Below are positions 13,466 through 34,879 of a DNA stretch of 35,744 nucleotides, in pieces. Source of the DNA: Lysobacterales bacterium (GTDB taxonomy: Bacteria; Pseudomonadota; Gammaproteobacteria; Xanthomonadales; SZUA-36); assembly GCA_021648125.1 (NCBI GenBank), contig JAKITK010000032.1, positions 1 to 35,744 on the forward strand, in the 5' to 3' direction. Numbering within the stretch: the first letter of the stretch is position 1; every line of letters begins with the position of its first letter. Below the pieces are notes generated by a model. That model was given only the letters and a program-made list of their open reading frames with translations. It had not been told where the DNA came from and made no database searches. The translations under genes and the position numbers were made by a program.

Positions 13466-14320
13466 ATGACCACATACACATGTTTTGACGTAGATATTAG
13501 TGATGGTGTTGTTCATATTGTGTTGAAAAGAGGCGACGCACTCAATACGATGACCCCAGCATTTTGGCAAGAATTGCCAGAGATTGTTCGCAGGATTGAC
13601 GATGAGGCCGAGGGGCGGGTCATCGTAATTTCCTCAACGGGCAAGCATTTCACCGCCGGGATGGATTTTGAAGTATTTGGCGCAAGTGGTGGCTTGATGG
13701 GAACTGATAGCGCTGAGGCGCAAAGCAATGGTCAAAGGCGCGAATCGCTTCGAGGGTTTGTAGCTATGTTGCAAGATACATTTAGCGCATTAGAGGCCGT
13801 CCGGATGCCGGTTCTGGTTGCTGTACAAGGGGGATGTATTGGCGGTGGTATTGATATGATTTCGGCTGCTGACATACGTTATTGTACCGAAGATGCATTT
13901 TTCTGTATTCAGGAAATCAATTTGGGTATGGTCGCAGATGTCGGAACTTTTCCACGCCTTGCTCATTTGATTCCACAGGGCTGGATCCGCGAAATGGCCT
14001 ATACGGGTCGGCGCTTATCAGCTGATAAAGCCAAGCAGATCGGGCTGGTAAATGAAATTTACGACACCCAAGAAAACATGCTAAAAGCAGTGCTGGGCAC
14101 GGCCCGCGAGATCGCCGCCAAAGCGCCTTTGGCCATATCTGGCTCCAAGACCATGATCAATTATGCCCGTGACCACAGCATTCGCGACAGTCTTGATTAT
14201 ATTGCCACATGGCAGGCAGGTATGTTCCAGCCAGCAGATATAATGGAAAGCGTGGCGGCACAAAAAGAAAAACGCGAGCCGAATTATCTAGATTTACGGC
14301 CGATTAAAAAATCCATTTAG
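13466..14320 (+). CDS. Delta3,5-Delta2,4-dienoyl-CoA isomerase (ECH1-like crotonase)
   Basis: A 284-residue crotonase-fold protein close to eukaryotic ECH1, which moves the double bonds of 3,5-dienoyl-CoA to 2,4-dienoyl-CoA during oxidation of unsaturated chains. Asp130 (GGGIDMIS), Glu150 (CIQEINLG) and Asp158 (ADVGTF) have exactly the 20- and 8-residue spacing of the rat ECH1 catalytic residues (Asp176, Glu196, Asp204). The segments AADIRYCTEDAFF and NYARDHSIRDSLDYIATWQ are also ECH1-like. I chose ATG 13466 because AGGA lies 10 bases upstream. ATG 13457 is too close to that site, and the TTG at 13394 adds a poly-Ser tract from a TTCATC repeat. The product would feed the dienoyl-CoA reductase at 22532. 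Confidence 0.85.
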   Translation: MTTYTCFDVDISDGVVHIVLKRGDALNTMTPAFWQELPEIVRRIDDEAEGRVIVISSTGKHFTAGMDFEVFGASGGLMGTDSAEAQSNGQRRESLRGFVAMLQDTFSALEAVRMPVLVAVQGGCIGGGIDMISAADIRYCTEDAFFCIQEINLGMVADVGTFPRLAHLIPQGWIREMAYTGRRLSADKAKQIGLVNEIYDTQENMLKAVLGTAREIAAKAPLAISGSKTMINYARDHSIRDSLDYIATWQAGMFQPADIMESVAAQKEKREPNYLDLRPIKKSI

Positions 14321-14350
14321 GCTAAATTCAGGGCTGGTAGGATAAGTGCT

Positions 14351-14998
14351 CTAGCGCCGCCGCATCATGGGGGCCAGCATATTGATGAACTCTTCCATAA
14401 TTTCATTTAGCGCTTTGGGGTCCTCCACAAAGGCCTCATGGGTAATCAGTCCTCGATAGAAAACACGGGCAATTTTCCAGACACGGGCTAGGCGCGCGTC
14501 GTCACCGTCGATCAATATGTAGTTTTGCAAGACCGAGTCTTGGAGACGCGCGTTCCAGCGCACCAAATCGGGTTTGATTCGCTGCTTTAGCTTTATGTCA
14601 GTTCTATAGGCAATCAGAATTTCCAAAAAGGCACGGGCTTCTGCGGTATTGGCGACTTGTTCCCATACTCGGCGTAATTCGGCCTTCATCACTGTCAGCT
14701 CGCATTGCTCTGGAGACAGGTCGGTATTTGGTACCGGCTTTTTTGGTAAATTGGCAGCCGGGCGCAGGATTTTATTGGTCGTTTCAACAATCAAATCTTC
14801 TTTGGTAGGGAAGTGGTGCGTGAGTGCTCCACGCGAAACGCCCGCCTCTTGCGTGATCCGGCTAGTGCTGGTGTTGGCATAGCCGTACTTGTCGAGGCAG
14901 CGAATGGTGGCTGCGCACAGTGCGTCTTTGGTTTCGCGCACCTGTTGTTCGCGTCGGGTCAATTGTTGCTTTCCACCGCTGTTTGATCGAGTTTTCAT
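14351..14998 (-). CDS. TetR-family repressor, AtuR-like position
   Basis: A 215-residue TetR-type regulator. The N-terminal HTH is clear (TSTSRITQEAGVSRGALTHHFPTKEDLIVE, about residues 42-71), followed by an all-helical ligand-binding domain. It points away from the atuA-like gene, as AtuR does in Pseudomonas, where that TetR repressor binds inverted repeats in the atuR-atuA gap. A perfect palindrome lies in the equivalent gap here. The isomerase gene at 13466 converges on it, with 30 bases between stops. The ATG at 14998 has no strong ribosome-binding site. The ligand is probably an acyl-CoA or terpenoid intermediate (inference). Confidence 0.85.
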   Translation of the reverse strand: MKTRSNSGGKQQLTRREQQVRETKDALCAATIRCLDKYGYANTSTSRITQEAGVSRGALTHHFPTKEDLIVETTNKILRPAANLPKKPVPNTDLSPEQCELTVMKAELRRVWEQVANTAEARAFLEILIAYRTDIKLKQRIKPDLVRWNARLQDSVLQNYILIDGDDARLARVWKIARVFYRGLITHEAFVEDPKALNEIMEEFINMLAPMMRRR

Positions 14999-15271
14999 TG
15001 CTGTAATTTAGTCACTATCATGGAGACGAGGCTTTCTTTGTTTCGCTTGATGCATGGAGTCATAGGCGTTCAGATAGACTTCTTTCGTGCTTCACGCTAC
15101 GCCACAGCTGCTTTAGAAACACATTGTCCGCCATGCGTATTGGTTTTGAGTACCTTGGTGAATACCTCACTGGTATACCGCTATCTCCTAGTCTGTATTG
15201 GAGATGCTCAGCATTTGATAATGGCACACTTGTTGACTCAGTTCCAATACTTTTTTAATAAATCAAATAAC

Positions 15272-15289
15272 AAACAGAACATTCTGTTT
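15272..15289. promoter_or_regulatory. Perfect palindromic operator, probably for the TetR repressor
   Basis: AAACAGAA (15272-15279), two central bases CA, and TTCTGTTT (15282-15289) form an exact 8+8 inverted repeat, the size and symmetry usual for TetR-family operators. It covers the place where the -35 element would lie for the TATAAT at 15308, so bound repressor would block RNA polymerase. Binding by the neighbouring TetR protein is inference from position. Confidence 0.65.
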
Positions 15290-15307
15290 TTTTAATTGAA
15301 AACACGA

Positions 15308-15313
15308 TATAAT
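15308..15313 (+). promoter_or_regulatory. Candidate -10 box of the atu-like operon
   Basis: A perfect TATAAT, 95 bases before the atuA-like ATG. The matching -35 region (about 15285-15290) is poor and lies in the palindrome's right arm, which fits a repressed or activator-aided promoter. Confidence 0.4.
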
Positions 15314-15407
15314 GAACTGCGTATCTGAATAAGTAAGCAAGTCCTAATTTATTTTTGTTCAAGACAGGCTTGAACAAAGGTATTGGAAATACACTTAGAG
15401 ACCATTT

Positions 15408-17243
15408 ATGGCTAACAGCAAAATCATTAAAATCGGAGGGGCCAGTGGATATTGGGGCGAATCGGATATGGCGGTGCCGCAATTTCTCGCTGACAGTCGC
15501 CTTGATTATATTGTCTTTGACTATCTTGCCGAAATCACCATGTCGATTATGGCGCGGGCGCGGGCCAAAGACGCGAGCAAGGGTTATGCACTCGACTTTG
15601 TTTCCTCGGTTCTAAAACCAAATTTGCTGGAAATTGCTAACCAAGGTGTCAAGATTATTTCCAATGCGGGCGGTGTAAACCCCGTTGCTTGCGGTGCAGC
15701 TATCAGGGAATTACTCAAGGAGCTAGGGCTGGATTTACGGGTTGCCGTTATTACAGGCGATGATATTTTAGCGTCTATACGCGCGGGTGACCGGGGATCA
15801 CTCCGCGAAATGTATGCAGGTACAGCACTGCCAGCAGCTGAAAAAACCATGAGTGCCAATGCTTATCTTGGTGCATTCCCCATAGCCGAGGCTCTGAATA
15901 AGGGCGCGGATATTGTTGTTACGGGCCGTTGCGTAGATAGCGCGGTGACGCTCGGGGCGTGTATCCATGAATTTGGCTGGGCGGCGGAGGATCTTGACGC
16001 GCTAGCGGGCGGTTCACTTGCCGGCCATGTGATCGAGTGCGGGCCACAAGCCACAGGCGGTAATTTTACCGACTGGCGCGAAGTGTCGGATAATCTTGCG
16101 AACATTGGTTACCCTATAGTCGAGATCACGCCCGCGGGCACATTCATCTGTACAAAACCAAAAAACAGCGGCGGCATGGTAACGATTGGCACGATTAGCG
16201 AGCAAATTGTTTACGAAATTGGCGACCCGCAAGCCTATATATTGCCTGATGTGATTTGCGATTTCGCCGGGATAAAGCTTGAGAAAATAGCAAAGAACCG
16301 CATTCGTGTTAGTGGTGCGCGCGGTTCTGCCGCGCCGGACAGTTATAAAGCCAGCATCACCTATATGGATGGCTATCGTGGCGTAATGTCGTTAAGTTTT
16401 ACAGGCTTTGAAGCTGATGAGAAAGTTAAGGTGTTCTCTGATGCTGTTCTTGTGCGTGCGCGCGAGAAACTTGGGCTAATGAATGCACCGGACTATACAG
16501 AAATTAGCCTAGAAGTTTTGGGCACGGAATGTCAATACGGAAGTGCTGCCCAAACTCCCAAAAGAGCGGAGGGGGGAGCGCGGGAGATTATCGGCAAATT
16601 CGCTTTCAAGCACAGTGATCAAAAAGCGATAATTTTGCTATTTAAAGAGATCACCGGCATGGCGCTGGCCTCACCTGCCGGACTGTCCGGCCTAGGAGGC
16701 GGGCGGCCTAAACCTTCTCCCGTTGTCCGCCTGTTTTCTTGCACAATACCCAAAAACAGTTTGACAGTGTCAGTCGAAATTGACGGCGAGACATCCGAAA
16801 TCCAAATTGCCAAAGGCCAGATTTTCAACCCGGAAATTATCGAACGACCTGCCCTGCCTTCAGGTTTATCCGCTGGTGAAATGACGACAGTCCCATTGAT
16901 CAAACTGGCCTGGGGTCGTAGTGGCGACAAAGGAAACAAAGCCAATATCGGGATTGTTGCCCGTAAGCCGGAATACCTGCCTTACATTGTTTCTGCACTC
17001 ACAGAGCAAGTTGTGGCTGAACGTTTTGCCCATTTTCTGGACGGGCCTTTAGATGAGTTGGCTAACCCGGTTGAGCGATTTTTAATGCCAGGACTGAGCG
17101 CTATCAATTTTCTCTTGCATGATGTTTTGGGCGGCGGCGGTATGGCCAGCCTACGCAATGACCCGCAGGGAAAGTGCTATGCCCAGATACTTTTAGATCA
17201 TCCTATTGCAGTGCCTATACAAATTGTAGAGAGCTTATCATGA
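15408..17243 (+). CDS. AtuA-like protein (DUF1446 plus C-terminal AtuA-like domain)
   Basis: The 611-residue protein matches AtuA of the acyclic terpene utilisation cluster. The DUF1446 domain covers about residues 5-450 (IGGASGYWGESDMAVPQFL; IISNAGGVNPVACG; IVVTGRCVDSAVTLG; GHVIECGPQATGG). A C-terminal ferredoxin-like domain (about 500-608) carries LAWGRSGDKGNKANIGIVAR. AtuA is needed for growth on citronellol in Pseudomonas, but its reaction has not been firmly assigned. First gene of an operon whose genes overlap or nearly touch. The ATG at 15408 is the natural start, with only a weak agaga upstream. Its stop overlaps the next start (ATGA), so the two are translationally coupled. Confidence 0.85.
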   Translation: MANSKIIKIGGASGYWGESDMAVPQFLADSRLDYIVFDYLAEITMSIMARARAKDASKGYALDFVSSVLKPNLLEIANQGVKIISNAGGVNPVACGAAIRELLKELGLDLRVAVITGDDILASIRAGDRGSLREMYAGTALPAAEKTMSANAYLGAFPIAEALNKGADIVVTGRCVDSAVTLGACIHEFGWAAEDLDALAGGSLAGHVIECGPQATGGNFTDWREVSDNLANIGYPIVEITPAGTFICTKPKNSGGMVTIGTISEQIVYEIGDPQAYILPDVICDFAGIKLEKIAKNRIRVSGARGSAAPDSYKASITYMDGYRGVMSLSFTGFEADEKVKVFSDAVLVRAREKLGLMNAPDYTEISLEVLGTECQYGSAAQTPKRAEGGAREIIGKFAFKHSDQKAIILLFKEITGMALASPAGLSGLGGGRPKPSPVVRLFSCTIPKNSLTVSVEIDGETSEIQIAKGQIFNPEIIERPALPSGLSAGEMTTVPLIKLAWGRSGDKGNKANIGIVARKPEYLPYIVSALTEQVVAERFAHFLDGPLDELANPVERFLMPGLSAINFLLHDVLGGGGMASLRNDPQGKCYAQILLDHPIAVPIQIVESLS

Positions 17244-18871
17244 CTGTTTTCACATCCAAAATTTCCAACACTTCGGAAGCTTTCCTACAAAACAAAGAGG
17301 ACATGATCGCGCTTGTTACAAAATTGCGGGAATACGAAATCCGGGCCGAGGCCCTGTCCGAGAAACGCCGCCCTCGGTTTGAGAAACGTGGCCAGTTAAC
17401 GCCCAGAGAGCGGCTTAAAAGATTGCTCGATCCGGGTATGCCGTTTGTTGAGCTTTATAATATGGCTAATTTTCTGCTTGATAACCCGGATGCCGAGACA
17501 AGTATTCCCGGTGCCAGTGCGATTACCGGTATCGGCTTTGTCAGCGGGGTGCGTTGTCTGGTCATGGCCGATGACAGCGGTATCAATGCCGGGGCGATCA
17601 CCACTGGTACAATTCAAAAAATGCTGGGAATTTTGAAAATTTCTTTGGAGCAAAAACTTCCGTTCATTCATCTGGTGGAAAGTGCTGGTGCCAACTTGAT
17701 GAAATACACTGTCGAGCTTTGGGCACACGGTGGAGGTATGTTTCACGGGCGCGCAAAATTATCTGCCGCAGGCATTCCGACAATCGTAGTCCTGCACGGT
17801 CCGTCCACGGCGGGCGGTGCTTATCAGCCGGGCATGAGTGATTATGTTATTGGGGTTAAAAATAACGGCATGGCAGCTCTGGCTGGCGCGGCGCTCACTC
17901 AAGCGGCAACCGGAGAAATTGCGGATGATCGGGAACTTGGCGGTACGGAAATGCATGCATCTGTCACCGGGCTGGTCGAATATCTGGCAGAAGATGATGC
18001 CCACGGCATTTTGATCTGCCGGGATATTGTTGAACGGCTGGACTGGAATAAAAATTGTGTTCCATATCCGCGGCAGGAGCTAATACCTCCCTTGCTCGAC
18101 CCGCAAGATTTAGCGGGCATTGTGCCGGTGGATTATAAAACCGCCTATGATGCTCGTGAAGTCATGGGACGGATTGTTGACGGTTCGGATTTTGTCGAGT
18201 TTAAGCCGTACTTTGGCCCTGCAACGGTTTGTATCCAGGCCAAGATATTTGGCCATGCCGTCGGAATCATCGGTAATAATGGCCCCATAGACCCGAACGG
18301 TGCGGCCAAAGCCACACATTTTTTCCAGCTTTGTGACCAGTCAGATACGCCGATTATTTTTCTAAATAATATCACCGGATATATGGTGGGTACGGAATAT
18401 GAACATAAGGGCATGATTAAGCTTGGAGCCAAGATGATTCAGGCGGTTTCCAATGTAAGCGTGCCCAAAATCACTCTGTATATTGGCGCTAGTTTCGGGG
18501 CTGGAAATTACGGTATGTGCGGTTATGCCTATGCGCCAGATTTTCTATTTGCCTGGCCTAATGCGACCACGGGCGTGATGGGCGGGGAACAGGCTGCAAC
18601 GACGATGGATGTGGTCATGCGTGCGGGTGCCAAACGGCGCGGTGTCGAGATAGACGAGGAAATGGAAGCAAAAATGGCAATGCAAAAGCAGGCGATCATT
18701 GACCATTTTGAACCACAATCAGACGCGTTTTATACATCCGGGCGGATGCTCGACCAAGGTATTATTGACCCGCGTGATACCAGAAGAATTCTCGGCTTTA
18801 CCTTGGAAACTTGTTGGGAATCTCGTAACCGGTCGTTAAAGCCCAACAGTTTTGGCATAGCGCGAATTTAG
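17240..18871 (+). CDS. Acyl-CoA carboxylase carboxyltransferase (beta) subunit, AtuC-like
   Basis: Transfers CO2 from carboxybiotin to an enoyl-CoA substrate, in partnership with the biotin subunit at 19712. The 543 residues agree with AtuC/LiuB-type carboxyltransferases. The N half contains RFEKRGQLTPRERLKRLLDPG and VESAGANLMKYTVELWAHGG. The substrate loop is GPSTAGGAYQPGMSDY, followed by GAALTQAATGEIADDRELGGTEMH. The C half has GIIGNNGPIDPNGAAKATHF and GASFGAGNYGMCGYAYAPDF. The ATG at 17240 has gagag 5 bases upstream and overlaps the preceding stop. Geranyl-CoA or a related beta-methyl enoyl-CoA is the likely substrate because of the AtuA and AtuE neighbours. Methylcrotonyl-CoA (LiuB) is the main alternative. 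Confidence 0.87.
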   Translation: MTVFTSKISNTSEAFLQNKEDMIALVTKLREYEIRAEALSEKRRPRFEKRGQLTPRERLKRLLDPGMPFVELYNMANFLLDNPDAETSIPGASAITGIGFVSGVRCLVMADDSGINAGAITTGTIQKMLGILKISLEQKLPFIHLVESAGANLMKYTVELWAHGGGMFHGRAKLSAAGIPTIVVLHGPSTAGGAYQPGMSDYVIGVKNNGMAALAGAALTQAATGEIADDRELGGTEMHASVTGLVEYLAEDDAHGILICRDIVERLDWNKNCVPYPRQELIPPLLDPQDLAGIVPVDYKTAYDAREVMGRIVDGSDFVEFKPYFGPATVCIQAKIFGHAVGIIGNNGPIDPNGAAKATHFFQLCDQSDTPIIFLNNITGYMVGTEYEHKGMIKLGAKMIQAVSNVSVPKITLYIGASFGAGNYGMCGYAYAPDFLFAWPNATTGVMGGEQAATTMDVVMRAGAKRRGVEIDEEMEAKMAMQKQAIIDHFEPQSDAFYTSGRMLDQGIIDPRDTRRILGFTLETCWESRNRSLKPNSFGIARI

Positions 18872-18881
18872 GGAGAGTGAG

Positions 18882-19709
18882 ATGAGTAAATTTGAAAGTT
18901 GTGACACGCTTGAGCTGGAACTTGACCGTGACTGGCTGACTGTTTGGCTCAATCGTCCCAAGGCCCGCAATGCGCTGTCTGGGAAAATGATCGCGGAGCT
19001 ACATCATGTATTTTCTTGCCTAAAAGACAACTGCAATATTCGCGGGGTTAGCATGCGCGGGCGCGGCGGTATATTTTGTTCCGGTGGTGATCTCAAGGGT
19101 TTTAAAACCGTCTTGCAAGGCGGCGGCCAGAGCCTTGAGGATATTGCCCGGATCAGTCGTCAAAACGGTATGTTATTTGATCTGATTAACGAAGCCCCGC
19201 AAGTTGTTGTTATGTTGGTCGAGGGCGCAGCTATGGCGGGCGGCTTGGGGATATTGTGTTGTGGCGATGTTGTGGTGGTAACCCAAGACGCAAAATTCGC
19301 CATGACTGAAACCTCGATCGGTATTCCGCCCGCGCAAATTGCCCCCTTTGTGGTTGAGCGTTTGGGGCTAAAAACTGCTCGCCGGCTGATGCTAACGGCG
19401 AGCCGGTTTACGGGAGAGAAAGCGCTACATATGGGCCTGGCTGATCATTTGGCCGCTGATGCGGCCCATATGGAGTTGATAGAAGCAGAGATTAAAAAAC
19501 AGGTGCGTCAATGTGCACCAAAGGCTAATGCGGTGACCAAGCAGATCGTTCTTGCAACCCGCCATGCCGACCGTGCGAGTATGATTGAACTGGCCGGAAC
19601 AAGCTTTGCCCAATGTATGTTGTCGGAGGAAGGACATGAAGGCATTGCTGCATTTTTCGAAAAACGGAAACCCATTTGGGCGGTTTCCTCGTCAAATAAG
19701 CAGGTGTAA
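18882..19709 (+). CDS. Enoyl-CoA hydratase, AtuE/LiuC-like (isohexenylglutaconyl-CoA hydratase type)
   Basis: A 275-residue crotonase, expected to hydrate the 3-carboxymethyl enoyl-CoA made by the carboxylase. The oxyanion segment is IFCSGGDLKGF and the second is EGAAMAGGLGILCCGD. Only the second classical catalytic Glu is present (Glu143 in AMTETSIGIPPAQIAPF); the first is Gly123. The stretch TETSIGIPPAQIAPFVVERLG followed by ARRLMLTASRFTGEKALHMGLAD matches methylglutaconyl-CoA/isohexenylglutaconyl-CoA hydratases rather than ordinary crotonase. GGGAGA lies just before the ATG, 10 bases after the upstream gene. It sits between the two carboxylase genes, as atuE sits between atuC/D and atuF in Pseudomonas. 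Confidence 0.82.
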   Translation: MSKFESCDTLELELDRDWLTVWLNRPKARNALSGKMIAELHHVFSCLKDNCNIRGVSMRGRGGIFCSGGDLKGFKTVLQGGGQSLEDIARISRQNGMLFDLINEAPQVVVMLVEGAAMAGGLGILCCGDVVVVTQDAKFAMTETSIGIPPAQIAPFVVERLGLKTARRLMLTASRFTGEKALHMGLADHLAADAAHMELIEAEIKKQVRQCAPKANAVTKQIVLATRHADRASMIELAGTSFAQCMLSEEGHEGIAAFFEKRKPIWAVSSSNKQV

Positions 19710-19711
19710 TT

Positions 19712-21702
19712 ATGTCAAAATTTACAACAATTTTGGTGGCTAATCGCGGTGAAATAGCTGTTCGAGTAATGAAAACGGCCAAGGCGCTTGGCTATAGGAC
19801 GGTGGCCGTATATTCAGGCGCCGATGTACATTCGCCGCATGTCAAAATGGCAGATGACGCGGTGTGTATCGGGCCTGCACCAGTCGGTGAAAGCTACCTT
19901 GTGATAGATAAAATTATCGAAGCGGCGCGGGTAAGTGGTGCCGGAGCCATCCATCCGGGCTATGGTTTCTTGTCCGAAAATGCAGCTTTCTCCAAAGCAT
20001 GTGAGAAATCCGGGTTGGTTTTTATTGGCCCAACGGCCAAATCCATTGAACTGATGGGCAACAAAGCGGCCGCCAAGCGCAGGATGATCAAAGCGGGGGT
20101 TCCTTGCATACCGGGATATGAGGATGCCGACCAGGCAGACGAAGTCCTGATAAATGCGGCCAAAAAAATCGGCTTTCCGATCATGGTCAAAGCGACGGCA
20201 GGCGGTGGTGGACGCGGTATGCGTTTGGTGCACAAGGCCGAGTATTTGCTGGATGGGATGAATTCGGCCCGTTCCGAAGCTTTAAACGCATTTGGCTCCG
20301 ATGAGTTAATCCTAGAAAAAGCCCTTATCAAACCGCGCCATGTGGAGGTGCAAATCTTCGCTGACACCCACGGCAATACGGTGCATTTTGCCGAGCGCGA
20401 TTGCTCCGTCCAGCGCCGTCATCAGAAGGTGGTCGAAGAAGCACCGTGCCCGGTGATGACAGACCCATTGCGTGCCCGCATGGGGGCGGCTGCGGTCGAT
20501 GCCGCTAAGAGCATTTCTTATCGGGGTGCGGGTACGGTCGAGTTTCTTTTAGACACTTCGGGTGAGTTTTATTTTTTGGAAATGAATACGCGCTTGCAAG
20601 TGGAACATCCGGTAACGGAAATGATCACCGGGTTTGATCTTGTCGCCTTGCAGATAAAAGTTGCCCAGGGGGAACCCCTTGGCTTGACCCAAGATGATGT
20701 GAAGTTGAACGGCCATGCCGTGGAGGTACGGCTGTACGCCGAAGATCCGGCGATGAATTTTTTGCCAGTCACGGGGCGAGTTGATCTGTGGAAACCCGCT
20801 GTTGGCGAGGGTGTGCGTATTGATGCGGGTATTGCTTCCGGGCAAGAAATTTCACCGTTTTATGACCCCATGGTTGCCAAAGTAATCGCCTGGGGCGAAA
20901 CACGAGACATTGCGGTCAGTCGGCTTATTGGCGCGCTTAAAAATACGCGGTTATTTGGCACCAAGACCAATAAAAGTTTCCTGATTGATGTGCTGTCCAA
21001 TAAAAACTTTCAGGCAGGCACTGCGACAACAGCGTTTATTGCTGAAGAATTTGGTGACGGCGGTGTCGTGGATAAACCATTGGCCTTAACCGAGGCGGCG
21101 ATTGCGGCGGTGTTGCAATACCACACATCGCGAAACTATATTCATAAAGCCGGGCTTGGTATAAACGCGGAGTTGATGAACTGGAATTCGGCCGGGTATC
21201 TGGAGACTCCCTTTAGATATTGCAGCGGCGATACCCGTATGGATTTAACACTGCGCACGACCAAGCCGGACACCTATGAAATCATATGCGGCGACCAAAA
21301 CACGAGCATAGATATACTTGATATTGAAGCAGGCGAGGCTACACTTAGTGTCAATGGACGGCGTAAGCAGGCCGGGTTCTTTGTGCCTGAGGACGGTAAA
21401 ATTCACTTGGAGCTTGAGGGGCGAACATTTAGCCTGCGCAATGAAAACGCCTATGCATCGCTCAGTGATGAGGCTGGCGGCGGTGGGCGTGTGCTAGCCC
21501 CCATGCACGGTGTTTTACTTGAGGTGCTTGTAAGCAAAAACGATACCGTGTCTAAAGGCGACGGTCTGGCTGTTTTGGAGTCTATGAAAATGCAGTACAA
21601 AATTTGTGCAGAGGTGGACGGGATTGTTAAATTTATGCATTTAACAGGCGGTGTGCAGGTCGCGGCAGGTGACCTGATACTGGAAATTGATGAAGAAAAA
21701 AA

Positions 21703-21706
<4 letters not shown>
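19712..21706 (+). CDS. Acyl-CoA carboxylase biotin-containing (alpha) subunit, AtuF-like
   Basis: Carboxylates its own biotin with ATP and bicarbonate for the beta subunit. The 664 residues match the AtuF/LiuD layout. The biotin carboxylase domain covers 1-450 (LVANRGEIAVRVMKTAKALG; GYGFLSENAAFSKAC; ATP-grasp loop KATAGGGGRGMRLV; FAERDCSVQRRHQKVVEE; LEMNTRLQVEHPVTEM). A less conserved middle domain follows, then a biotinyl domain with ESMKMQ, where Lys626 is the biotin site. It starts 2 bases after the hydratase and overlaps the next gene by ATGA. Nothing is missing, so the enzyme should be active. Confidence 0.9.
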
Positions 21707-24556
<2,850 letters not shown>

Positions 24557-27480: not shown

Positions 27481-28188
27481 TTAGGGGTGTTTAACGGCTT
27501 GGTTTTCAAGTTTATCCATTGAGGCGAGAATGAACTGCGTAGTTTCGTTAAAGTGTTGGCTCAATAATTCACAGGCCTTGTCGGCGTCCTTGTCTAATAC
27601 AGAATCCATAAGGTCTTGATGTTCCTTTGTTACATTTCGATGAATACTTTTGCCTTCCGACAGAACAACCGCCTTGCGGTAGCGGGTACTGCATTCGAAA
27701 AGAGTTGAAATGAACAGCATTAACCATTCGGATTTACACCCTGACAACAAGGTAAAGTGGAAGTCAGAATGGGCGGTTTCCCAATCTGGGTCCAGCGCAA
27801 GGCGACTGCCCTCGGGCGTATTTTGAATGCGTGACATCCGGTGGTGAGCCGCAATGATTTCGCCCTCCCAGACCACACCGCCATTTGTGATCGCTTCGCG
27901 TAAGGCAAGACACTCCAGCTCAATGCGTATGCGCTGGGTATCGATTAATTCTTTTCTGGAGATTTCCGAAACTCTAAACCCGCGTTGATCTTCAGCCGTG
28001 ATAAAGCCAGTAGTGGATAGGCGCGACAAGGCCTCTCGAAGCGGGTTTATCCCGGCTTGATACTGTTTACTCAAACTGCTCAAATTAAGACGGGCGCCCG
28101 GTGCATGCGTGCCGTTTACGATGTCATCACGAACAGAATCCGCAAGCTTGGATGCCATTGTTCGTTTTTGTGTTTGTTCAGTGACCAT
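27481..28188 (-). CDS. GntR-family (FCD) transcriptional regulator
   Basis: A 235-residue FadR-like regulator. The winged HTH spans about 8-75 (KLADSVRDDIVNGTHAPGARLN; INPLREALSRLSTTGFITAEDQRGFRVSEIS), followed by an FCD ligand domain (RIRIELECLALREAITNGG; metal-type His residues in SDFHFTLLSGC and EHQDLMDS). I chose ATG 28188 because GGAGG lies 7 bases upstream; the open frame continues to 28293 without a better site. It leads the leftward operon and diverges from the rightward one, so it probably controls both through the AT-rich gap between them. The inducer is unknown, probably an organic acid from the pathway. Confidence 0.88.
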   Translation of the reverse strand: MVTEQTQKRTMASKLADSVRDDIVNGTHAPGARLNLSSLSKQYQAGINPLREALSRLSTTGFITAEDQRGFRVSEISRKELIDTQRIRIELECLALREAITNGGVVWEGEIIAAHHRMSRIQNTPEGSRLALDPDWETAHSDFHFTLLSGCKSEWLMLFISTLFECSTRYRKAVVLSEGKSIHRNVTKEHQDLMDSVLDKDADKACELLSQHFNETTQFILASMDKLENQAVKHP

Positions 28189-28401: not shown

Positions 28402-29247
28402 ATGCGGTTAGTACGGTATGGTGATAAAGGTATGGAAAAACCAGGCTTGCTTGATAGCAAGAACCGGGTCAGATCACTTGCCGGGCTTGTTCCTAATATT
28501 GATACCGCAATGCTCGCCCCGGCCGCACAAGAGGTTCTTAGAGCTATTGATCCGGAAAAATTACCACTGATTCAGGCCGATTGCCGATTGGGAATGCCGC
28601 TTATTGGCATACGACAAATTATTGCGGTAGCGGGAAATTATCGGGCTCATGTTGAAGAAAGAGGGCATATTCAACCAACAGAACCCATGATATTTCATAA
28701 GTCAGTCGGCTCTTTATCTGGCCCTACCGATGATATTATTTTGCCTCCCGGTACCAATGAAAATGACTGGGAAGTGGAGCTTGGCATCCTCATTGGCAAA
28801 ACGGCACAACGGGTTTCAGAAAATGAGGCGCTGTCCCATGTGGGCGGCTATTGTCTTGTGAACGATATTACAGAGCGGCACTGGCAACACAAACGCATTG
28901 GCCAGTTTGGCAAAGGCAAAAGCTTTGATAGTTTCACGCCGATTGGCCCCTGGTTGGTCACCCCTGAGGAGCTTGGAGACCCCCAGACGCTTGACATGTG
29001 GTTGGAGCTTAATGGCAAGCGGCGACAGCAGGGCTCGACAGAGGAAATGGTATATGGGGTCGCGGAAATCGTCAGCTATATCAGCCAGTTTATGACATTG
29101 GAGATTGGTGATCTGATCGTGTCGGGTACATGCGCAGGTGTCGGCGCGGCCTGCAAACCACCCGTGTTCATGCAAGATGGAGACAGGCTGGATTTTGGTA
29201 TATCCGGGCTTGGGGTGCAACGCCATGCCGTGCGGCGGGCAAAATAG
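28402..29247 (+). CDS. Fumarylacetoacetate-hydrolase-family enzyme
   Basis: A 281-residue FAH-superfamily protein. These use a metal ion to cleave C-C bonds of acylpyruvates or to hydrate or decarboxylate keto acids from aromatic ring cleavage. The core is visible: IIAVAGNYRAHVEE, MIFHKSVGSLSGP, and the metal ligands in ENDWEVELGILIGK (E-x-E type) and CLVNDITERHWQ. The substrate lid is KGKSFDSFTPIGPWLV, and LIVSGTCAGVG precedes the C terminus. I chose ATG 28402 because GGAG lies 7 bases upstream; ATG 28390 is an alternative, and the longer frame runs through the AT-rich operator. First gene of a six-gene operon. Fumarylpyruvate or acylpyruvate hydrolase is possible; the exact reaction cannot be fixed. 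Confidence 0.85.
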   Translation: MRLVRYGDKGMEKPGLLDSKNRVRSLAGLVPNIDTAMLAPAAQEVLRAIDPEKLPLIQADCRLGMPLIGIRQIIAVAGNYRAHVEERGHIQPTEPMIFHKSVGSLSGPTDDIILPPGTNENDWEVELGILIGKTAQRVSENEALSHVGGYCLVNDITERHWQHKRIGQFGKGKSFDSFTPIGPWLVTPEELGDPQTLDMWLELNGKRRQQGSTEEMVYGVAEIVSYISQFMTLEIGDLIVSGTCAGVGAACKPPVFMQDGDRLDFGISGLGVQRHAVRRAK

Positions 29248-29259
29248 GAAGGAAATATT

Positions 29260-29856
29260 ATGACTGATGAAAAAGTGAAAGCCAGCAATTCGCGTGTAAA
29301 TGCCGTGGTTGAGCGACCGGAAGAAATTATTACTTCGACAGCTGATTATTACGCCTTGCGAGAGAAATGGACCAAGCAGCTCGCGACACCGAAATTGATG
29401 CGCAGTGCCGACGCGCCCTCGGTTATGGACGGTGAGCAAAATATAAAATTGTTGTTAAGCGGTGAAGAGAGCGGGGGGCGTTTCATGGTGAGCCTAATCA
29501 CTCTGGAACCGGATACGGGCGCCCCACCCCACCACCAACCCAATGAAGACGAAATTTTTCTTGTAGTTTCCGGTCAGGTTACCATCACAATTGGGCATGA
29601 AACCCAAACCGTGGGGTCGGGCGATTTCGCCTATGCACCGCGCAACACAACCCATGCCTTTCGGGCGGCGGGCGGCAAGCCAGCGGTTATGTTTTCCATA
29701 AACAGCCCCGGTGGGCATGAGAGAGGTTTCGAATATATCACGGGTATGGTGAAAAACGGCCATCCCATAGAAGAAGCCATAGCCGGGCTGAAAAATTATG
29801 ATTTCATCATCGATGAGATTGAAAACGAAGACGACAAAAAACGAATTGGCGTGTAA
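29260..29856 (+). CDS. Single-domain cupin, possible dioxygenase or isomerase
   Basis: A 198-residue protein with one cupin barrel at about 60-160. Motif 1 is PDTGAPPHHQPNEDEIFLVVSG and motif 2 is FAYAPRNTTHAFRA. In related cupins motif 1 usually reads HxH before NEDE. Here the codons at 29530-29538 give His91-His92-Gln93, so one expected metal-binding His is Gln, while the Glu of motif 1 and the His of motif 2 are kept. It could still bind metal through three residues or be non-catalytic. AAGGAA precedes the ATG, 12 bases after the FAA-hydrolase gene. A quercetinase-like or ring-cleavage role is possible but unproven; it is too short for a two-domain gentisate dioxygenase. Confidence 0.8.
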   Translation: MTDEKVKASNSRVNAVVERPEEIITSTADYYALREKWTKQLATPKLMRSADAPSVMDGEQNIKLLLSGEESGGRFMVSLITLEPDTGAPPHHQPNEDEIFLVVSGQVTITIGHETQTVGSGDFAYAPRNTTHAFRAAGGKPAVMFSINSPGGHERGFEYITGMVKNGHPIEEAIAGLKNYDFIIDEIENEDDKKRIGV

Positions 29857-29908
29857 TTTTATTCGCCAAAAACCAAACAAAAATCATTAATACATGAGGG
29901 GAATTGAT

Positions 29909-32245
29909 ATGAGTGATAAGACTATGCAAACAAAGACTTCGTTAACCAAAACATTGCTAACATCAGCAATTGCCTCGGTACTACTATCGCCAGCTATAGT
30001 GTGGGCGGAGGAATCCGATTTAATCCTAGAAGAGGTCCTGGTCACGGCGCAAAAACGGGAAGAGAACATCACCGATGTTCCGATTTCCATAACGGTGGTT
30101 TCGGCAGAAACTCTCGACAAGCGTGGCATTACAGACACTTCTGAATTGGCGAAAGTTGTGCCGGGCTTTGTCTATCAGTCTTCAACATTTGGCTCACCGA
30201 TCTATTATATTCGTGGTATTGGCTTTGCCGAAATCACCCAGGCTGTAAGCCCGGCCGTCAGCATTTATGTTGATCAGATACCGCTACCTTTTTCGGTGAT
30301 GGCGCGTGGCGCGATTCTGGATTTGCAATCAGTCGAGGCGCTTAAGGGGCCGCAGGGGACTTTGTTTGGCCAAAACTCCACCGGCGGTGCCATCAACTAT
30401 ATCGCTGCGAAGCCAACCGAAGAATTTACGGGCGGATTTGATTTAAGTTATGGGCGTTTTAATGATATAGAGATAGGCGGGTTTGTCAGTGGCGCTTTAG
30501 GCGATACACTGAAAGCCAGAGCCTCCGTTCGCAGTGAAAGCCGAGGAAATTGGCAGCAGAGTTCCAGCCGAAACGACGAGCTTGGCGAGCGGGATTTTAA
30601 TACGTGGCGGGTATTGCTCGATTGGGCTCCGTCTGACAATGTGGATTTTTTGTTCAATGTAAATGGCTGGCAGGATAAATCGGATTCACAAGCCAATCAG
30701 TTTATCGGCTTCAGGTTTTTGGTGCCTTGTCCGGGGCCAGGCCGTCAAGCTGCCTGTGATGCTTTGGAGGCCCAGCCCATATCCCCCGCAACCGCCAGAG
30801 CCGCTGACTGGGATCCGGGTCGCAGTTTTGCCGTTGATGATGATTTTTACCAGGTTTCCCTGCAATCCAATTGGCAGGCAAGTGATAATTTTGCGCTGAC
30901 CTCCCAAACCTCCTATTCAAAATATGACTCCCTCGCACCCTTTGATACCGACGGCATGGCCTATACGAATTTGACTGTCGAGGGTGATATTGATATCGAA
31001 AGTTTTAATCAGGAACTGCGTGTAAATGGTGAACTTGAGAATGGTGTAATCTGGATGCTCGGCGGTAATTACCAAAAATCCGATTCCAGTGAAGTTCAGT
31101 TAAGTATTTTGGGATCGACCAATAGTGCTGGCTTTGACGGTTTGATTTCACGCAATGCCCAAGATGTAAGCTCCAAAGCGATGTTTGCCAGTGTCGAGGT
31201 GCCCTTGGGGGATAAATTTAAAATCTCAACATCCGCCCGTTATACATCAGAAGACCGCGACTTTAGTGGCTGCGCGCAAGATGATGGCAATGGCGGGCTT
31301 GCTGCCCTGTTAGGGATAATTTCAAATCTAAGGACTGGATTGCCGCCCATACCGCCACGCTTTATCGCGGCGGGTGGATGTGTAACGCTCAATTCTGATA
31401 CCAGCTTACCCATAGGCGGTCTGGTTACCCAAAGCCTGTCTGAGGATAATATTTCCTGGCGCGCCAGTTTGGATTACAAACCGAACGCGGACACGCTTTT
31501 GTATTTAACCGGCAGTAAAGGCTATAAATCCGGCTCATACCCGCTGGTACCCGGGGTTTTTGATGATCAGTTTATTCCGGCCACCCAAGAATCGGTTTTA
31601 GCTTACGAGCTTGGCTTGAAGAAAACACTGGCGAATCAGCGCGTGCAGCTCAACAGCGCTTTGTATTACTATAACTATGATGACAAGCAAGTGCGTGGGT
31701 TCCTGGATGTTGGCTTTCCCTTTGGCAATGTGCCCGCACTTGTCAATGTGCCCAAATCAAGGGCCTGGGGTTTTGAAACCGAGATCACCGCTATCTTGAT
31801 GGATGGGTTACAGGTTAGTGGGGCCGTAAATTATATAGATACGAAAGTCACCGAGGACTTTTATACACCTGACCCGCTCGGTGATATTTTCAATATCAAC
31901 GGCGAAGCTTTCCCCATGGCACCCAAATGGCAATTGAGTATGGATATTGAATATAGCTTTCCCATTGGCGAAGCCCTGGTGGCTTTCTTCGGGATTAGCC
32001 CGAGCTACCGCTCGGCAACAAAAGCTGCTTTCGGAACCAACCCCCTTCTGGCGGTGGATAGCTATACATTGCTTGACCTGAGAGCCGGTATCGAATCGGA
32101 GGTAGGAGACTGGCGGGCGGAAGTTTTCGCTAGAAATGTCACGGACCAATTTTACTGGACACAAATCACCCGCGAAATTGATGCGCTAACCCGCACGGTT
32201 GGTATGCCGGCGACTTACGGCGTGCGTGTAAGCTATAGATACTAA
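29909..32245 (+). CDS. TonB-dependent outer-membrane receptor
   Basis: A 778-residue receptor for active uptake through the outer membrane. A signal peptide covers about residues 1-36 (TSLTKTLLTSAIASVLLSPAIVWA), ending before EESDL. A TonB-box-like LEEVLVTAQKREE is followed by the plug (DVPISITVVSAETLDKRG; IRGIGFAE; VEALKGPQGTLFGQNSTGGAINYI), then a beta-barrel ending VRVSYRY with the usual C-terminal aromatic. I chose ATG 29909 because AGGGG lies 7 bases upstream; an ATG at 29894 adds five residues. No TonB/ExbBD genes are nearby. Receptors of this subclass often import plant or algal compounds as well as iron chelates. The catabolic operon suggests it takes up the pathway substrate. Confidence 0.92.
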   Translation: MSDKTMQTKTSLTKTLLTSAIASVLLSPAIVWAEESDLILEEVLVTAQKREENITDVPISITVVSAETLDKRGITDTSELAKVVPGFVYQSSTFGSPIYYIRGIGFAEITQAVSPAVSIYVDQIPLPFSVMARGAILDLQSVEALKGPQGTLFGQNSTGGAINYIAAKPTEEFTGGFDLSYGRFNDIEIGGFVSGALGDTLKARASVRSESRGNWQQSSSRNDELGERDFNTWRVLLDWAPSDNVDFLFNVNGWQDKSDSQANQFIGFRFLVPCPGPGRQAACDALEAQPISPATARAADWDPGRSFAVDDDFYQVSLQSNWQASDNFALTSQTSYSKYDSLAPFDTDGMAYTNLTVEGDIDIESFNQELRVNGELENGVIWMLGGNYQKSDSSEVQLSILGSTNSAGFDGLISRNAQDVSSKAMFASVEVPLGDKFKISTSARYTSEDRDFSGCAQDDGNGGLAALLGIISNLRTGLPPIPPRFIAAGGCVTLNSDTSLPIGGLVTQSLSEDNISWRASLDYKPNADTLLYLTGSKGYKSGSYPLVPGVFDDQFIPATQESVLAYELGLKKTLANQRVQLNSALYYYNYDDKQVRGFLDVGFPFGNVPALVNVPKSRAWGFETEITAILMDGLQVSGAVNYIDTKVTEDFYTPDPLGDIFNINGEAFPMAPKWQLSMDIEYSFPIGEALVAFFGISPSYRSATKAAFGTNPLLAVDSYTLLDLRAGIESEVGDWRAEVFARNVTDQFYWTQITREIDALTRTVGMPATYGVRVSYRY

Positions 32246-32261: not shown

Positions 32262-32552
32262 ATGACAATACTGCATATGGTATGGCTTAAAGCGCCCAAG
32301 GGTGTATCGGATGCTAATATGGAAGATTTGCTGGAGGATATCCGGTGTATGAAAAGCATTCCGTCCGTGATTAATATTGTGGCTGGTAAGAACTTAAAAA
32401 ATACCGACCACGGATATGAATACGGCGTCTTGATGACTTACGCCGATAAGGTAGCGCAACAGCTTTATATCAAGCACCCGTTACACGAAAAAGTACGTGA
32501 CCAAATCAAGGCCATGGGTGTGGGCATGATGGGCCTAGACTTTGAACATTGA
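32262..32552 (+). CDS. Dabb-domain protein (dimeric alpha/beta barrel), olivetolic-acid-cyclase-like
   Basis: A 96-residue stress-responsive A/B barrel (Dabb) protein. His5 in ILHMVWLK, Tyr69 and His75 in LYIKHPLHEKV match in position and spacing His5, Tyr72 and His78 of plant olivetolic acid cyclase, where the Tyr/His pair catalyses aldol ring closure of a polyketide. The YxxHPxH pattern is widespread in the family, so enzymatic activity is not proven. The gene lies between the TonB receptor (16 bases upstream) and the malonyl-CoA synthetase (11-base overlap), so it belongs to the operon. It could act on a polyketide-like ring-cleavage product or bind the substrate. Confidence 0.82.
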   Translation: MTILHMVWLKAPKGVSDANMEDLLEDIRCMKSIPSVINIVAGKNLKNTDHGYEYGVLMTYADKVAQQLYIKHPLHEKVRDQIKAMGVGMMGLDFEH

Positions 32553-34086
32553 TGTTTCGGCAGCGCTAGAAAATCCGGCCCATTGGCTGGAGTCTGTCGC
32601 GCAGTCTGATCCCGGGCGCCCATTGATGCGTGTGCCCGGCGAGGAAGTTTATAGCTATGCTGATGTTACTGATATTTCCGGACGCTTTGCGACTTATCTG
32701 GCCCGGTGCGGTATCAGGGCGGGTGACCGTGTAGCTGCGCAAGTGGATAAGTCGCCGCAGAACCTTATGCTGTGTTTGGCCTGTATTCGCATGGGAGCCA
32801 TATATGTGCCGCTAAATACGGCCTATTCAAAAATGGAGCTTGAATATTTCATTGGTGATGCGGAGCCTGACCTGCTGGTTTGCCAACCAGAGAGGCTTGA
32901 TGAAATAAAATCGGTTACAGACAAATTTAATGTGCCGGCTTTGCATTCTCTTGGCGTCGACGGGGAGGGAACATTTGTAGAGGGTGCCTTAAATTGTCCG
33001 CCCGGTGATTTCCTACCCTTTAGCGGAGATCCCTCCGAAATCGCAGCCCTGCTCTATACCTCCGGCACCACGGGCCGTTCAAAAGGCGCGATGATTACCC
33101 GTCAGGCACTGGCCCATTGTGCAAAAACCCTTTCAGATACCTGGCATTTTACGGCGGACGATGTTTTACTACACGCCCTACCCATATTCCACGGTCACGG
33201 CCTCTTCATCGCCGCAAATACGGTTTTATATGCTGGTGCGCAGATGATTTTCACCAAACGCTTTGATATAGATGAGGTTATTGCCAACCTGCCTGACGCT
33301 ACCGTATTTATGGGCGTGCCGACCATGTACATGCGTCTAATAAAGCATCCGGGGTTTTCACCAGAGGTTTGCAACAAACTTCGCTTAGCCATTTCTGGTT
33401 CTGCACCGATTATGCTCGAAACCCTGGATGCCTTTAGAGAGAAATCTGGATGCACTATATTGGAGCGATACGGCTTGACGGAAACCCTGATCGTCACCGC
33501 CAACCCTTATGAAGGCACCGCTGTACAAGGCTCTGTCGGCCTGCCAGTACGCGATGTGGAAGTGAGTCTTGCGGATATAGAAACGGGTGATGTACTAAGC
33601 GGCCCTGGTCAGGTTGGGACAATTAAAGTGCGCAGTCCCGGCCTGTTTAAAGGCTATTGGCGCAACCCTGAAAAAACCGCAGAAGAAATGTGCACGGACG
33701 GCTATTTCAAGACCGGAGATTTGGGGCGGTTCGACGAAAATGGTTATCTCTATATTGTTGGCCGTAGTAAAGACATGATCATCACCGGTGGTTATAATGT
33801 CTACCCTAAGGAAGTGGAAATTAAAATCGACGGTCTGGGTTATGTGAAAGAAAGTGCCGTTATTGGCCTGCCGCATCCGGACTTTGGCGAGGCTGTGACC
33901 GCAGTGGTAGTGACAAATACAGCGAGTCATCCGGGCGAGGCGGATATGATCGCCGCTTTGAAAGGCGGATTTACCAAATACAAGTGCCCAAAAAAAATAA
34001 TCTTTGTGGGAAGCCTGCCGCGCAATGCCATGGGTAAAGTGCAAAAAAACCTGCTGCGGCAAGACTATAAGACTCTCTATCAATAA
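32542..34086 (+). CDS. matB: Malonyl-CoA/methylmalonyl-CoA synthetase, MatB-like
   Basis: An ANL enzyme of 514 residues, making malonyl-CoA or methylmalonyl-CoA from the free diacid, CoA and ATP. It is close in pattern to Rhodopseudomonas MatB: P-loop LLYTSGTTGRSKGA, then DVLLHALPIFHGHGLF, FMGVPTMYMRLI, the specificity segment LERYGLTETLIVTANPYEG, hinge YIVGRSKDMIITGGYNVYPKE and the catalytic C-terminal LPRNAMGKVQKN. It starts at TTG 32542, inside the end of the Dabb gene; no ATG is better placed and the ribosome-binding site is weak. It precedes an ScpB-like gene by 13 bases, suggesting the pair handles a C3/C4 diacid released by the pathway. Confidence 0.85.
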   Translation: MNIDVSAALENPAHWLESVAQSDPGRPLMRVPGEEVYSYADVTDISGRFATYLARCGIRAGDRVAAQVDKSPQNLMLCLACIRMGAIYVPLNTAYSKMELEYFIGDAEPDLLVCQPERLDEIKSVTDKFNVPALHSLGVDGEGTFVEGALNCPPGDFLPFSGDPSEIAALLYTSGTTGRSKGAMITRQALAHCAKTLSDTWHFTADDVLLHALPIFHGHGLFIAANTVLYAGAQMIFTKRFDIDEVIANLPDATVFMGVPTMYMRLIKHPGFSPEVCNKLRLAISGSAPIMLETLDAFREKSGCTILERYGLTETLIVTANPYEGTAVQGSVGLPVRDVEVSLADIETGDVLSGPGQVGTIKVRSPGLFKGYWRNPEKTAEEMCTDGYFKTGDLGRFDENGYLYIVGRSKDMIITGGYNVYPKEVEIKIDGLGYVKESAVIGLPHPDFGEAVTAVVVTNTASHPGEADMIAALKGGFTKYKCPKKIIFVGSLPRNAMGKVQKNLLRQDYKTLYQ

Positions 34087-34099
34087 CACCAAAAAACTC

Positions 34100-34879
34100 A
34101 TGAATTATGTACGCACAAAAATAATAGACAAAGTTGGCACAATAACCATGTGCCGGAGCGAAAAAATGAACGCGTTTAATGACCCGTTCATTGGTGAGAT
34201 GATTGCGGCTTTTGAGATACTGCAAAATGATAATGTCCGCGCCGTTATCCTGCGGGCACAAAACAATGCCAAGGTCTGGTCGGCGGGCAGAGACCTTGAA
34301 AGCCTACCAAACGGAAAGCATGATATAGAAGGATGGGATACACAGTTGGAGGCTTTGGGAGAGACTGTCCTTAACTGTCCGGTTCCCGTTATTGCACTGA
34401 TTGAGGGTAATGTTTGGGGCTTCGCTTGCGAAATTGCTTTTTCCTGTGATTTGATTGTGGCCGTACCCGAAACAAGCTTTGCTATCACACCTGCGAAACT
34501 TGGTGTACCCTATGCACTCAGTGGTCTGCGCACAGTTATTGAGCGCCTTGGGCCTAACTTGGCCAAAGAAATGTTGTTTTGCGCAACCGGTTTTGATGCG
34601 CAGCGGCTCTACGGGCACGGGATTATCAATCATGTTGTCAACCCTGATGAAATTGAAAAATTTGTGCAAGACATGGCGCACAAAATTTCTTGTTTGGCCC
34701 CGCTCAGTATCGCGGCGCTCAAGCAACAGATATCGGATATCACCAGGGCACATTATCTTCCCCCAAAAACCATAATACAAAGCGAAAAAAGAGCTGCTCA
34801 TCTGCTCGGTTCAGCCGATTTTAGAGAAGGAATATCAGCCCTTAAAGCGAAGCGGCGGCCAAAATTCCAGGGGAAATAA
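34100..34879 (+). CDS. Methylmalonyl-CoA decarboxylase-like crotonase (ScpB family) with altered oxyanion site
   Basis: A 259-residue crotonase aligning along its length with E. coli ScpB/YgfG, which decarboxylates methylmalonyl-CoA to propionyl-CoA. Shared features are KVWSAGRDLESLPNG, IEGNVWG, FAITPAKLGVPYALSGL, and the C-terminal EGISALKAKRRPKFQGK. Thr130 and Tyr138 match Thr132 and Tyr140 of ScpB. His66 is replaced by Arg64, and the second Gly of VWGG (Gly110) by Phe108, both at the oxyanion hole. The substrate or reaction may therefore differ. The ATG at 34100 is 13 bases after matB; no clear ribosome-binding site is visible. Last gene of the GntR-side operon. Confidence 0.82.
   Translation: MNYVRTKIIDKVGTITMCRSEKMNAFNDPFIGEMIAAFEILQNDNVRAVILRAQNNAKVWSAGRDLESLPNGKHDIEGWDTQLEALGETVLNCPVPVIALIEGNVWGFACEIAFSCDLIVAVPETSFAITPAKLGVPYALSGLRTVIERLGPNLAKEMLFCATGFDAQRLYGHGIINHVVNPDEIEKFVQDMAHKISCLAPLSIAALKQQISDITRAHYLPPKTIIQSEKRAAHLLGSADFREGISALKAKRRPKFQGK

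Follow-up and report, generated by a model that had tools for sequence, protein, structure and literature searches.

Two adjoining catabolic arms on a Lysobacterales contig, possibly one horizontally moved pathway for a ring and an isoprenoid tail

Do two catabolic gene sets that lie side by side on a bacterial contig treat two parts of one molecule? The question is raised by positions 13466–34879 of a 35,744-nucleotide stretch of Lysobacterales DNA (JAKITK010000032.1; hereafter the window), which is an entire contig of a 3.23-Mb assembly. Seventeen island genes run from 13466 (ECH1) to 34879 (ECH2). The left, Atu-type arm has the order ECH1, a divergent TetR regulator, AtuA, AtuC, AtuE-like, AtuF, a TIGR03084 protein and FadH. 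The right, GntR arm carries a membrane protein, a class A flavin monooxygenase and the GntR regulator on the minus strand, and an FAA-hydrolase, a cupin, a TonB receptor, a Dabb protein, a MatB-like synthetase and the ScpB-like ECH2 on the plus strand. An earlier note on this DNA had proposed that the arms treat the tail and the head of one hydrophobic molecule. All the genes that it named are present, as judged from reading frames and from Pfam, NCBIfam and solved-structure matches, and the Atu operon additionally contains the TIGR03084 protein and the FadH-type reductase, both beyond its gene list. Most likely the two arms are parts of one pathway that was moved horizontally and took in an Atu module of general use. 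The more specific reading, a single transferred island, under two regulators, for the breakdown of a hydrophobic compound that combines a phenolic ring with an isoprenoid tail, is tentative, with a probability of roughly 0.38.

A pattern scan of GTDB r220 genomes with the flavin enzyme gave one confirmed relative, the alphaproteobacterial metagenome-assembled genome Dive100_bin10.85 (G061), which shares its phylum, and not its class, with the window genome. All 17 island genes lie there on one 65.6-kb contig (G061:C54), between 26.2 and 51.8 kb, in the order membrane protein, flavin monooxygenase, GntR; FAA-hydrolase, cupin, TonB receptor, Dabb, MatB-like, ScpB-like, ECH1; TetR, AtuA-C-E-F, TIGR03084, FadH. 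Relative gene orientations are identical in the two islands, and the order differs by one two-block swap, an inversion-free circular permutation for which passage through a circular intermediate would be one simple reading. Four extra genes stand between GntR and the FAA-hydrolase in G061. One encodes another TonB receptor and one a glutathione S-transferase (GST); the other two products are small, and one of these is a membrane protein with a weak MauE match below threshold.

Protein identities between the islands range from 60% (ScpB-like) to 88% (AtuC), with 73.5% overall over 6,798 aligned residues, GntR counted. Silent sites are saturated or nearly so, with a proportion of synonymous differences (pS) of 0.68–0.83 in the 16 usable gene pairs, the GntR pair being excluded from this comparison. 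The ratio dN/dS was 0.03–0.11 in the 11 pairs with finite dS, and is rough at such dS; five pairs had infinite dS. Saturated silent sites and low dN/dS indicate a long period over which the set was kept together and its genes intact, and the recurrence of the full set in a distant genome indicates that the arrangement is more than chance. The idea of one molecule with a tail and a head gains from this, the GntR arm being contiguous with the Atu arm in 2/2 genomes despite near-saturated silent sites. The companion expectation, that the arms co-occur across genomes, was borne out in one direction and not in the other: the Atu arm alone is common, with 16 neighbourhoods in 15 genomes lacking GntR-arm genes, and the GntR arm was never found alone. 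The dependence is one-way, of the GntR arm on the Atu arm and not the reverse; the Atu arm is the general module and the GntR arm the rare part.

Three observations, taken together, indicate a transfer of the island into the lineage of the window. A close AtuC relative was found in 25 of 376 genomes of G061's class (24 if G061 itself is left out) versus 2 of 360 in the class of the window, the window genome included. In an AtuC tree of 32 rows, two of which (L048 and L070) are the same hit, the island pair are sisters (100/100) among rows of the alphaproteobacterial class. Finally, a congener that is 60% complete (G003) matches the SIMPL, ole-like and PyrC genes left of the island at 82–97%, but other genes follow PyrC there; its PyrC gene is split over two contigs, and the other two congeners gave no PyrC match. 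Judged by its flavin enzyme and cupin, the GntR arm was seen in the two island genomes only. In surveys of 61 genomes around the window genome, 296 of G061's order and 32 of its family, the flavin enzyme turned up once each, in the window genome, in G061 and again in G061, respectively; the cupin (1 of 398 phylum genomes at 1e-25) and AtuA (1 of 39 family genomes) were found in the window genome only. GC content is 46% left of the island, 49.7% within it, 49.5% in the G061 copy and 48.0% in the remainder of the G061 contig. On plasmids, no copy of the flavin enzyme was found at 1e-80; 89 records matched at 1e-50, all less than 60% identical (29–32% in the 15 listed). The cupin had no plasmid match at 1e-20, and the membrane protein had three, all on Klebsiella plasmids and about 31% identical over 71–73% of its length, the one inspected being flanked by IS5 transposases.

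The carboxylase of the left arm is of the geranyl-CoA carboxylase (GCC) type. AtuC, the carboxyltransferase beta subunit (17240–18871, plus strand), has as its closest solved relative geranyl-CoA carboxylase beta (5ikl, 564 bits), with 429 bits to the Pseudomonas methylcrotonyl-CoA carboxylase (MCC; 3u9r). The accessible text of PMC4673880 gives two criteria for separating the enzymes, a Gly versus Phe191 selectivity position and a three-residue insertion. In alignments to 5ikl and 3u9r, AtuC has Gly at the position of MCC Phe191, and one extra residue instead of the three-residue insertion; the MCC paralogue of the window genome carries Phe at the selectivity position. The other Atu genes, all on the plus strand, encode AtuA (15408–17243; Pfam PF07287 458.8 bits, cut-off 22.8, and a C-terminal AtuA_ferredoxin domain, PF23544, 100.1 bits), AtuF, the biotin carboxylase and biotin carrier subunit (19712–21706; Pfam biotin carboxylase domains and Biotin_lipoyl), and an AtuE-like crotonase/hydratase (18882–19709; Pfam ECH_1). 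The last is a crotonase in the right place, and fails the curated gamma-carboxygeranoyl-CoA/isohexenylglutaconyl-CoA hydratase model NF004227 (160.3 bits, cut-off 426). AtuB, AtuD, AtuG and AtuH were not found among the genes of 13466–34879, which include no acyl-CoA or short-chain dehydrogenase and, as sole acyl-CoA synthetase, the MatB-like enzyme.

The FadH-type 2,4-dienoyl-CoA reductase (22532–24556, plus strand; OYE and FAD/NAD domains) aligns end to end with E. coli FadH (1ps9, 800 bits, residues 2–671 of 673), which predicts its reaction type. A second FadH-type protein, 53% identical, is encoded elsewhere in the window genome; the island copy may therefore be an additional one with a dedicated role. 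FadH proteins 70–73% identical to it occur in 3 of the 16 AtuC neighbourhoods without a GntR arm, and acyl-CoA dehydrogenase genes lay beside all six Atu loci tested (9/9 reading frames, the candidates being picked by eye). ECH1 (13466–14320, plus strand) belongs to the PRK06142 crotonase family (NCBIfam NF004794, 328.9 bits, cut-off 308), which we take to be dienoyl-CoA-isomerase-like; its G061 copy is 73% identical and directly follows ECH2. Between AtuF and FadH lies the TIGR03084 (MDMPI_N) gene (21703–22530, plus strand; 277.2 bits, cut-off 247.95), a neighbour of AtuF in many inspected Atu operons. A gentisate-like route in which this protein would act as maleylpyruvate isomerase was weighed and discarded: the TIGR03084 model scored 277 bits versus 89 for the mycothiol-dependent model, and the MDMPI_N protein is a member of Atu operons that have no ring-degrading arm.

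The TetR regulator (14351–14998, minus strand; Pfam TetR_N) is divergent from AtuA, an AtuR-like position, and 65–67% identical in G061. The gap between the two genes holds a candidate operator (15274–15287), the palindrome ACAGAAC[A/G]TTCTGT, which is kept in the same gap of the G061 island. The palindrome is exact at one site per genome; all other places have 2 mismatches and are similar in number to those of a reversed control pattern. Shuffles reached the observed count of sites with at most 2 mismatches in 16 of 100 cases for the TetR pattern and in 21 of 100 for the GntR pattern, and because of this only the exact, conserved TetR palindrome was used. According to a citation in the accessible text of PMC4847356, AtuR binds two 13-bp inverted repeats. 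A motif common to both GntR regions, AATAATATATTAT, was set aside as too AT-rich to claim.

In the right arm, the class A flavin monooxygenase (25802–27463, minus strand; Pfam FAD_binding_3 and Rng_hyd_C) is predicted to act on a phenolic ring, its best solved relatives being 2,4-dichlorophenol 6-monooxygenase and 2-hydroxybiphenyl 3-monooxygenase; the natural-product enzymes RdmE, GrhO5 and RebC are also among its matches. The membrane protein (24701–25768, minus strand), a possible transporter, sits between this gene and the Atu operon, adjoins the flavin hydroxylase in both islands and is 69% identical in G061; it has many hydrophobic segments and no Pfam or NCBIfam match. Structure predictions from two-row alignments gave a mean pLDDT of 44.4 for it and 43.9 for the cupin. 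The GntR/FCD regulator (27481–28188, minus strand; Pfam GntR and FCD; its open frame extends to 28293) and the FAA-hydrolase (28402–29247, plus strand) had their starts set by alignment with the G061 copy, the listed open frames overlapping at the divergon. The FAA-hydrolase is acylpyruvate-hydrolase-like: its best solved relative is L-2,4-diketo-3-deoxyrhamnonate hydrolase (8gsr, 281 bits; the next, 158), and it fails the 2,4-didehydro-3-deoxy-L-rhamnonate hydrolase equivalog NF053535 (347.9 bits, cut-off 500). Downstream on the plus strand are a single-domain cupin (29260–29856; Pfam Cupin_2), a candidate ring- or chain-cleaving dioxygenase, the TonB-dependent outer-membrane receptor (29894–32245; Pfam; 76% identical in G061) and the Dabb-domain protein (32262–32552; Pfam PF07876, 49.6 bits, cut-off 25).

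A possible chemical link between the arms was seen in the MatB-type malonyl-CoA synthetase (32542–34086, plus strand; NCBIfam NF005702, 686.5 bits, cut-off 558). Both island copies have Gly207/Ile306 in place of Thr207/Met306, a pair of changes that is said to broaden the MatB pocket. In the numbering used, which was checked on Rhizobium MatB, 207 is Thr and 306 is Met. Among 12 comparators chosen from the 40 listed of 282 plasmid records, 11 have Thr/Met and the twelfth (L120) has Ser/Ile. The accessible parts of PMC8044089 and PMC13351777 describe the use of MatB T207G/M306I alongside wild-type MatB to prepare malonyl-CoA analogues, and those of PMC6273144 a more promiscuous MatB variant from active-site mutagenesis. 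The Gly207/Ile306 pocket would fit a substituted malonate, and this suggestive feature makes a link between head and tail plausible. The last gene of the arm, ECH2 (34100–34879, plus strand; NCBIfam NF008506, 270.4 bits, cut-off 257), is a crotonase like methylmalonyl-CoA decarboxylase (ScpB/YgfG), with 1ef8 and 6n92 as its closest solved relatives. A MatB relative with a Ser/Ile pocket on a Bradyrhizobium plasmid (L124, 13974–15512) adjoins an enoyl-CoA hydratase, an amidase and a GntR regulator, perhaps another substituted-malonate pathway.

From the genes and their families, their joint occurrence and the carboxylase and MatB residues, we infer the following reactions, their order and the substrate. 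The compound would be taken up via the TonB receptor and its ring hydroxylated by the flavin enzyme, then opened and rearranged by the cupin, perhaps with the Dabb protein (and, in G061, the GST). The FAA-hydrolase would cleave the resulting acylpyruvate into pyruvate and a malonate bearing the tail; that it is nearest to a 2,4-diketo-acid hydrolase was counted in favour of the scheme. The MatB-type synthetase would form the 2-substituted malonyl-CoA, which the ScpB-like crotonase would decarboxylate to R-CH2-CO-CoA, a 4-enoyl-CoA if R is prenyl. Desaturation by a dehydrogenase encoded elsewhere would give a 2,4-dienoyl-CoA, the substrate type of FadH, with FadH and ECH1 handling the dienoyl intermediates, and one round of beta-oxidation, ending in thiolysis, would yield an acyl- or enoyl-CoA with a 3-methyl branch, at which the Atu enzymes can come in. 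There AtuC/F would carboxylate the beta-methyl group, AtuE would hydrate the product and AtuA would remove the added group as acetate, following the Atu chemistry in the accessible text of PMC4847356. Such a scheme uses nearly every gene and would explain why enzymes of MatB and ScpB types sit with Atu genes. The FadH- and ECH1-type enzymes, together with the GCC-type Gly of AtuC, were likewise counted for a single pathway. In its complete form, the proposal is a route that dismantles the ring of prenylated phenols or meroterpenoids: the tail leaves as 2-prenylmalonate, the altered MatB-type and ScpB-like enzymes convert this to prenylacetyl-CoA for FadH and the Atu carboxylase, and the island passes from one bacterial class to another in circular form; so much taken together is somewhat unlikely.

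A number of observations weigh against a single pathway of this kind. The scheme postulates three things: an outside dehydrogenase, a ring hydroxylated in a phloroglucinol-like pattern and a ring-opening cupin. The acyl-CoA dehydrogenase that it needs is not encoded in the island, and no classical ring-cleavage dioxygenase was found among the island genes. The cupin matches quercetinase 2h0v weakly (62 bits), and the HxH motif usual in cupins is replaced in it by HHQ. In both copies of ECH2 an Arg stands for His66, Thr132 and Tyr140 being retained; His66 and Tyr140 are presumably active-site residues of methylmalonyl-CoA decarboxylase. As for the altered MatB pocket, the accessible text of PMC6542682 reports that MatB took 2-substituted malonates up to eight-carbon derivatives, and the residue change is no more than suggestive because the wild-type enzyme already accepts substituted malonates.

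The genomic pattern also has a contrary side. None of the flavin monooxygenase, FAA-hydrolase, cupin, Dabb, membrane-protein and GntR genes was listed in the 16 AtuC neighbourhoods of the 15 other genomes in G061's class, each spanning 12.7–35 kb, mostly 20 kb, so that a more distant GntR arm would escape. These neighbourhoods came from 15 of the 24 non-G061 genomes with a close AtuC, and from one of two hits in G840. TIGR03084 was found in 13 of 398 phylum genomes, that of the window included; in 4 of the 12 others AtuA, AtuC and AtuF adjoin it, and none of these has GntR-arm genes within 16 kb. The genomes G424 of this survey and G771 of the AtuC survey look like one, so the two overlap by one, outside the 4 of 12. 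While AtuC (88% versus 72%), TetR (67% versus 42%) and AtuA (70% versus 59%) are clearly closer between the islands than to Atu loci without a GntR arm, FadH (74–75% versus 70–73%) and AtuE (65% versus 61% to the best such locus) are barely so, which weakens the claim of one tight shared history for all genes. The GntR arm is present in two genomes only, and a single joining event followed by transfer could give the same pattern. Finally, the GntR arm showed no TetR operator, and a search for an operator shared by both arms found none; to judge from the DNA, the arms appear to be under separate control.

These points bear on three other explanations. The arms could be two independent pathways that became neighbours and were transferred together, the GntR arm for a phenolic or flavonoid-like compound and the Atu arm for an acyclic isoprenoid or a branched acid. 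Separate regulators, a TetR site at the Atu operon only and an Atu arm that is common alone would all fit, and catabolic genes often gather on mobile islands. We nevertheless place this account on the unlikely side, given that the 17 genes have stayed linked while silent sites came near saturation and two blocks changed places, that ECH1 belongs to the FAA-hydrolase-to-ECH2 run in G061 but stands beside TetR and the Atu genes in the window, and that FadH, ECH1 and the altered MatB-like enzyme offer a possible chemical bridge. One pathway with a non-aromatic substrate, such as a cyclic terpenoid or a branched polyketide-like compound, is unlikely too. The flavin enzyme would then oxidise an enol or ketone, as its matches to enzymes named for natural products (RdmE, GrhO5, RebC) would allow, and the MatB- and ScpB-like enzymes would handle the resulting alkylmalonate; neither the cupin nor the FAA-hydrolase assignment needs an aromatic ring, and no more than a substituted malonate follows from the MatB change. 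On the other hand, the flavin enzyme has two phenol hydroxylases as its best solved relatives, and hydrolases of the FAA type are common in aromatic pathways.

Quite improbable is the remaining account, in which the GntR arm is a variant of the fde/ifc flavonoid type (flavin-dependent A-ring hydroxylation, ring opening, C–C cleavage and a late cupin) and the Atu arm helps with side products only. The Variovorax ifc cluster does pair a group A flavin monooxygenase with late-acting cupins, as stated in the accessible part of PMC11069340, but the island has no counterpart of the glyoxalase-type ring-opening enzyme of fde/ifc. Flavonoids are moreover plant compounds, whereas the name of the G061 genome points to a deep-sea vent, 'Dive100' suggesting such an origin through its match with a Southwest Indian Ridge vent study, itself accessible in part. 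A single pathway for a phenolic ring and an isoprenoid tail remains the preferred, tentative reading.

Compared with described systems, the island consists of known modules in a new combination; the joint-pathway idea gains real support, and a prenylated phenol or meroterpenoid is a candidate substrate. With the Pseudomonas Atu cluster (atuR-atuABCDEFGH) it shares AtuA, a GCC-type AtuC, AtuF and an AtuE-like crotonase, as well as a TetR gene that diverges from atuA across a gap containing an inverted repeat. It differs in lacking AtuB, AtuD, AtuG and AtuH, in an AtuE-like protein below the curated equivalog cut-off, in the added TIGR03084 and FadH genes and in the adjoining GntR arm. Alphaproteobacterial Atu operons (AtuA-C-E-F-TIGR03084, with or without FadH) have the same backbone, but none of the 16 neighbourhoods has GntR-arm genes, and acyl-CoA dehydrogenase genes adjoin the six tested loci while the island has none. 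The fde (Herbaspirillum) and ifc (Variovorax) clusters likewise combine a group A flavin monooxygenase and a cupin; their ring is handled by a glyoxalase-type enzyme, a family without a match among the island genes, and the accessible part of PMC11069340 mentions no Atu enzymes, MatB or ScpB for them. The MatB-type enzyme shares its family and its two residues with the engineered T207G/M306I variant, except that the island changes are natural and present in both copies. ECH2 passes the curated cut-off for E. coli methylmalonyl-CoA decarboxylase (YgfG/ScpB) and shares its Thr132 and Tyr140, the difference being the Arg that replaces His66. The accessible portion of the open-licence literature yielded no description of a gene set with this composition by which bacteria degrade prenylated aromatics or meroterpenoids. 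If the preferred reading is right, the island would supply a full set of candidate genes and a specific chemical hypothesis, release of the tail as a substituted malonate, and a natural instance of the MatB pocket change engineered for polyketide work. It would also be a case in which an Atu module of general use was taken up into a rarer and more specific island, one that has passed between classes of the same phylum.

Some features around the two islands were also noted. In the window, the genes left of the island encode UPRT, Rpe, an AraC-type regulator, a ketosynthase-like protein, a SIMPL protein, oleDCBA-like products and PyrC. The 628-aa ketosynthase-like protein (4248–6134) scores 109 bits with the FabF model (cut-off 494) and adjoins the AraC/DJ-1-type regulator. 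The oleABCD-like long-chain olefin genes (7517–12113), which are also present in the congener G003, include matches to the OleC- and OleD-type families that fall short of the curated equivalog cut-offs (OleC 669, cut-off 900; OleD 394, cut-off 580). On the G061 contig, a few kb from the island copy, frames at 17474–22375 resemble F420 biosynthesis genes by eye, and two at a greater distance, at 8452–10485, likewise resemble F420-dependent monooxygenases. To the right of the island in the window (34880–35744), a segment of about 70 bases (about 35106–35183) matches 29 plasmid records and is 76–82% identical in the ten listed; it resembles the end of an insertion sequence, which we take to be IS21-like, and the contig ends shortly after it.

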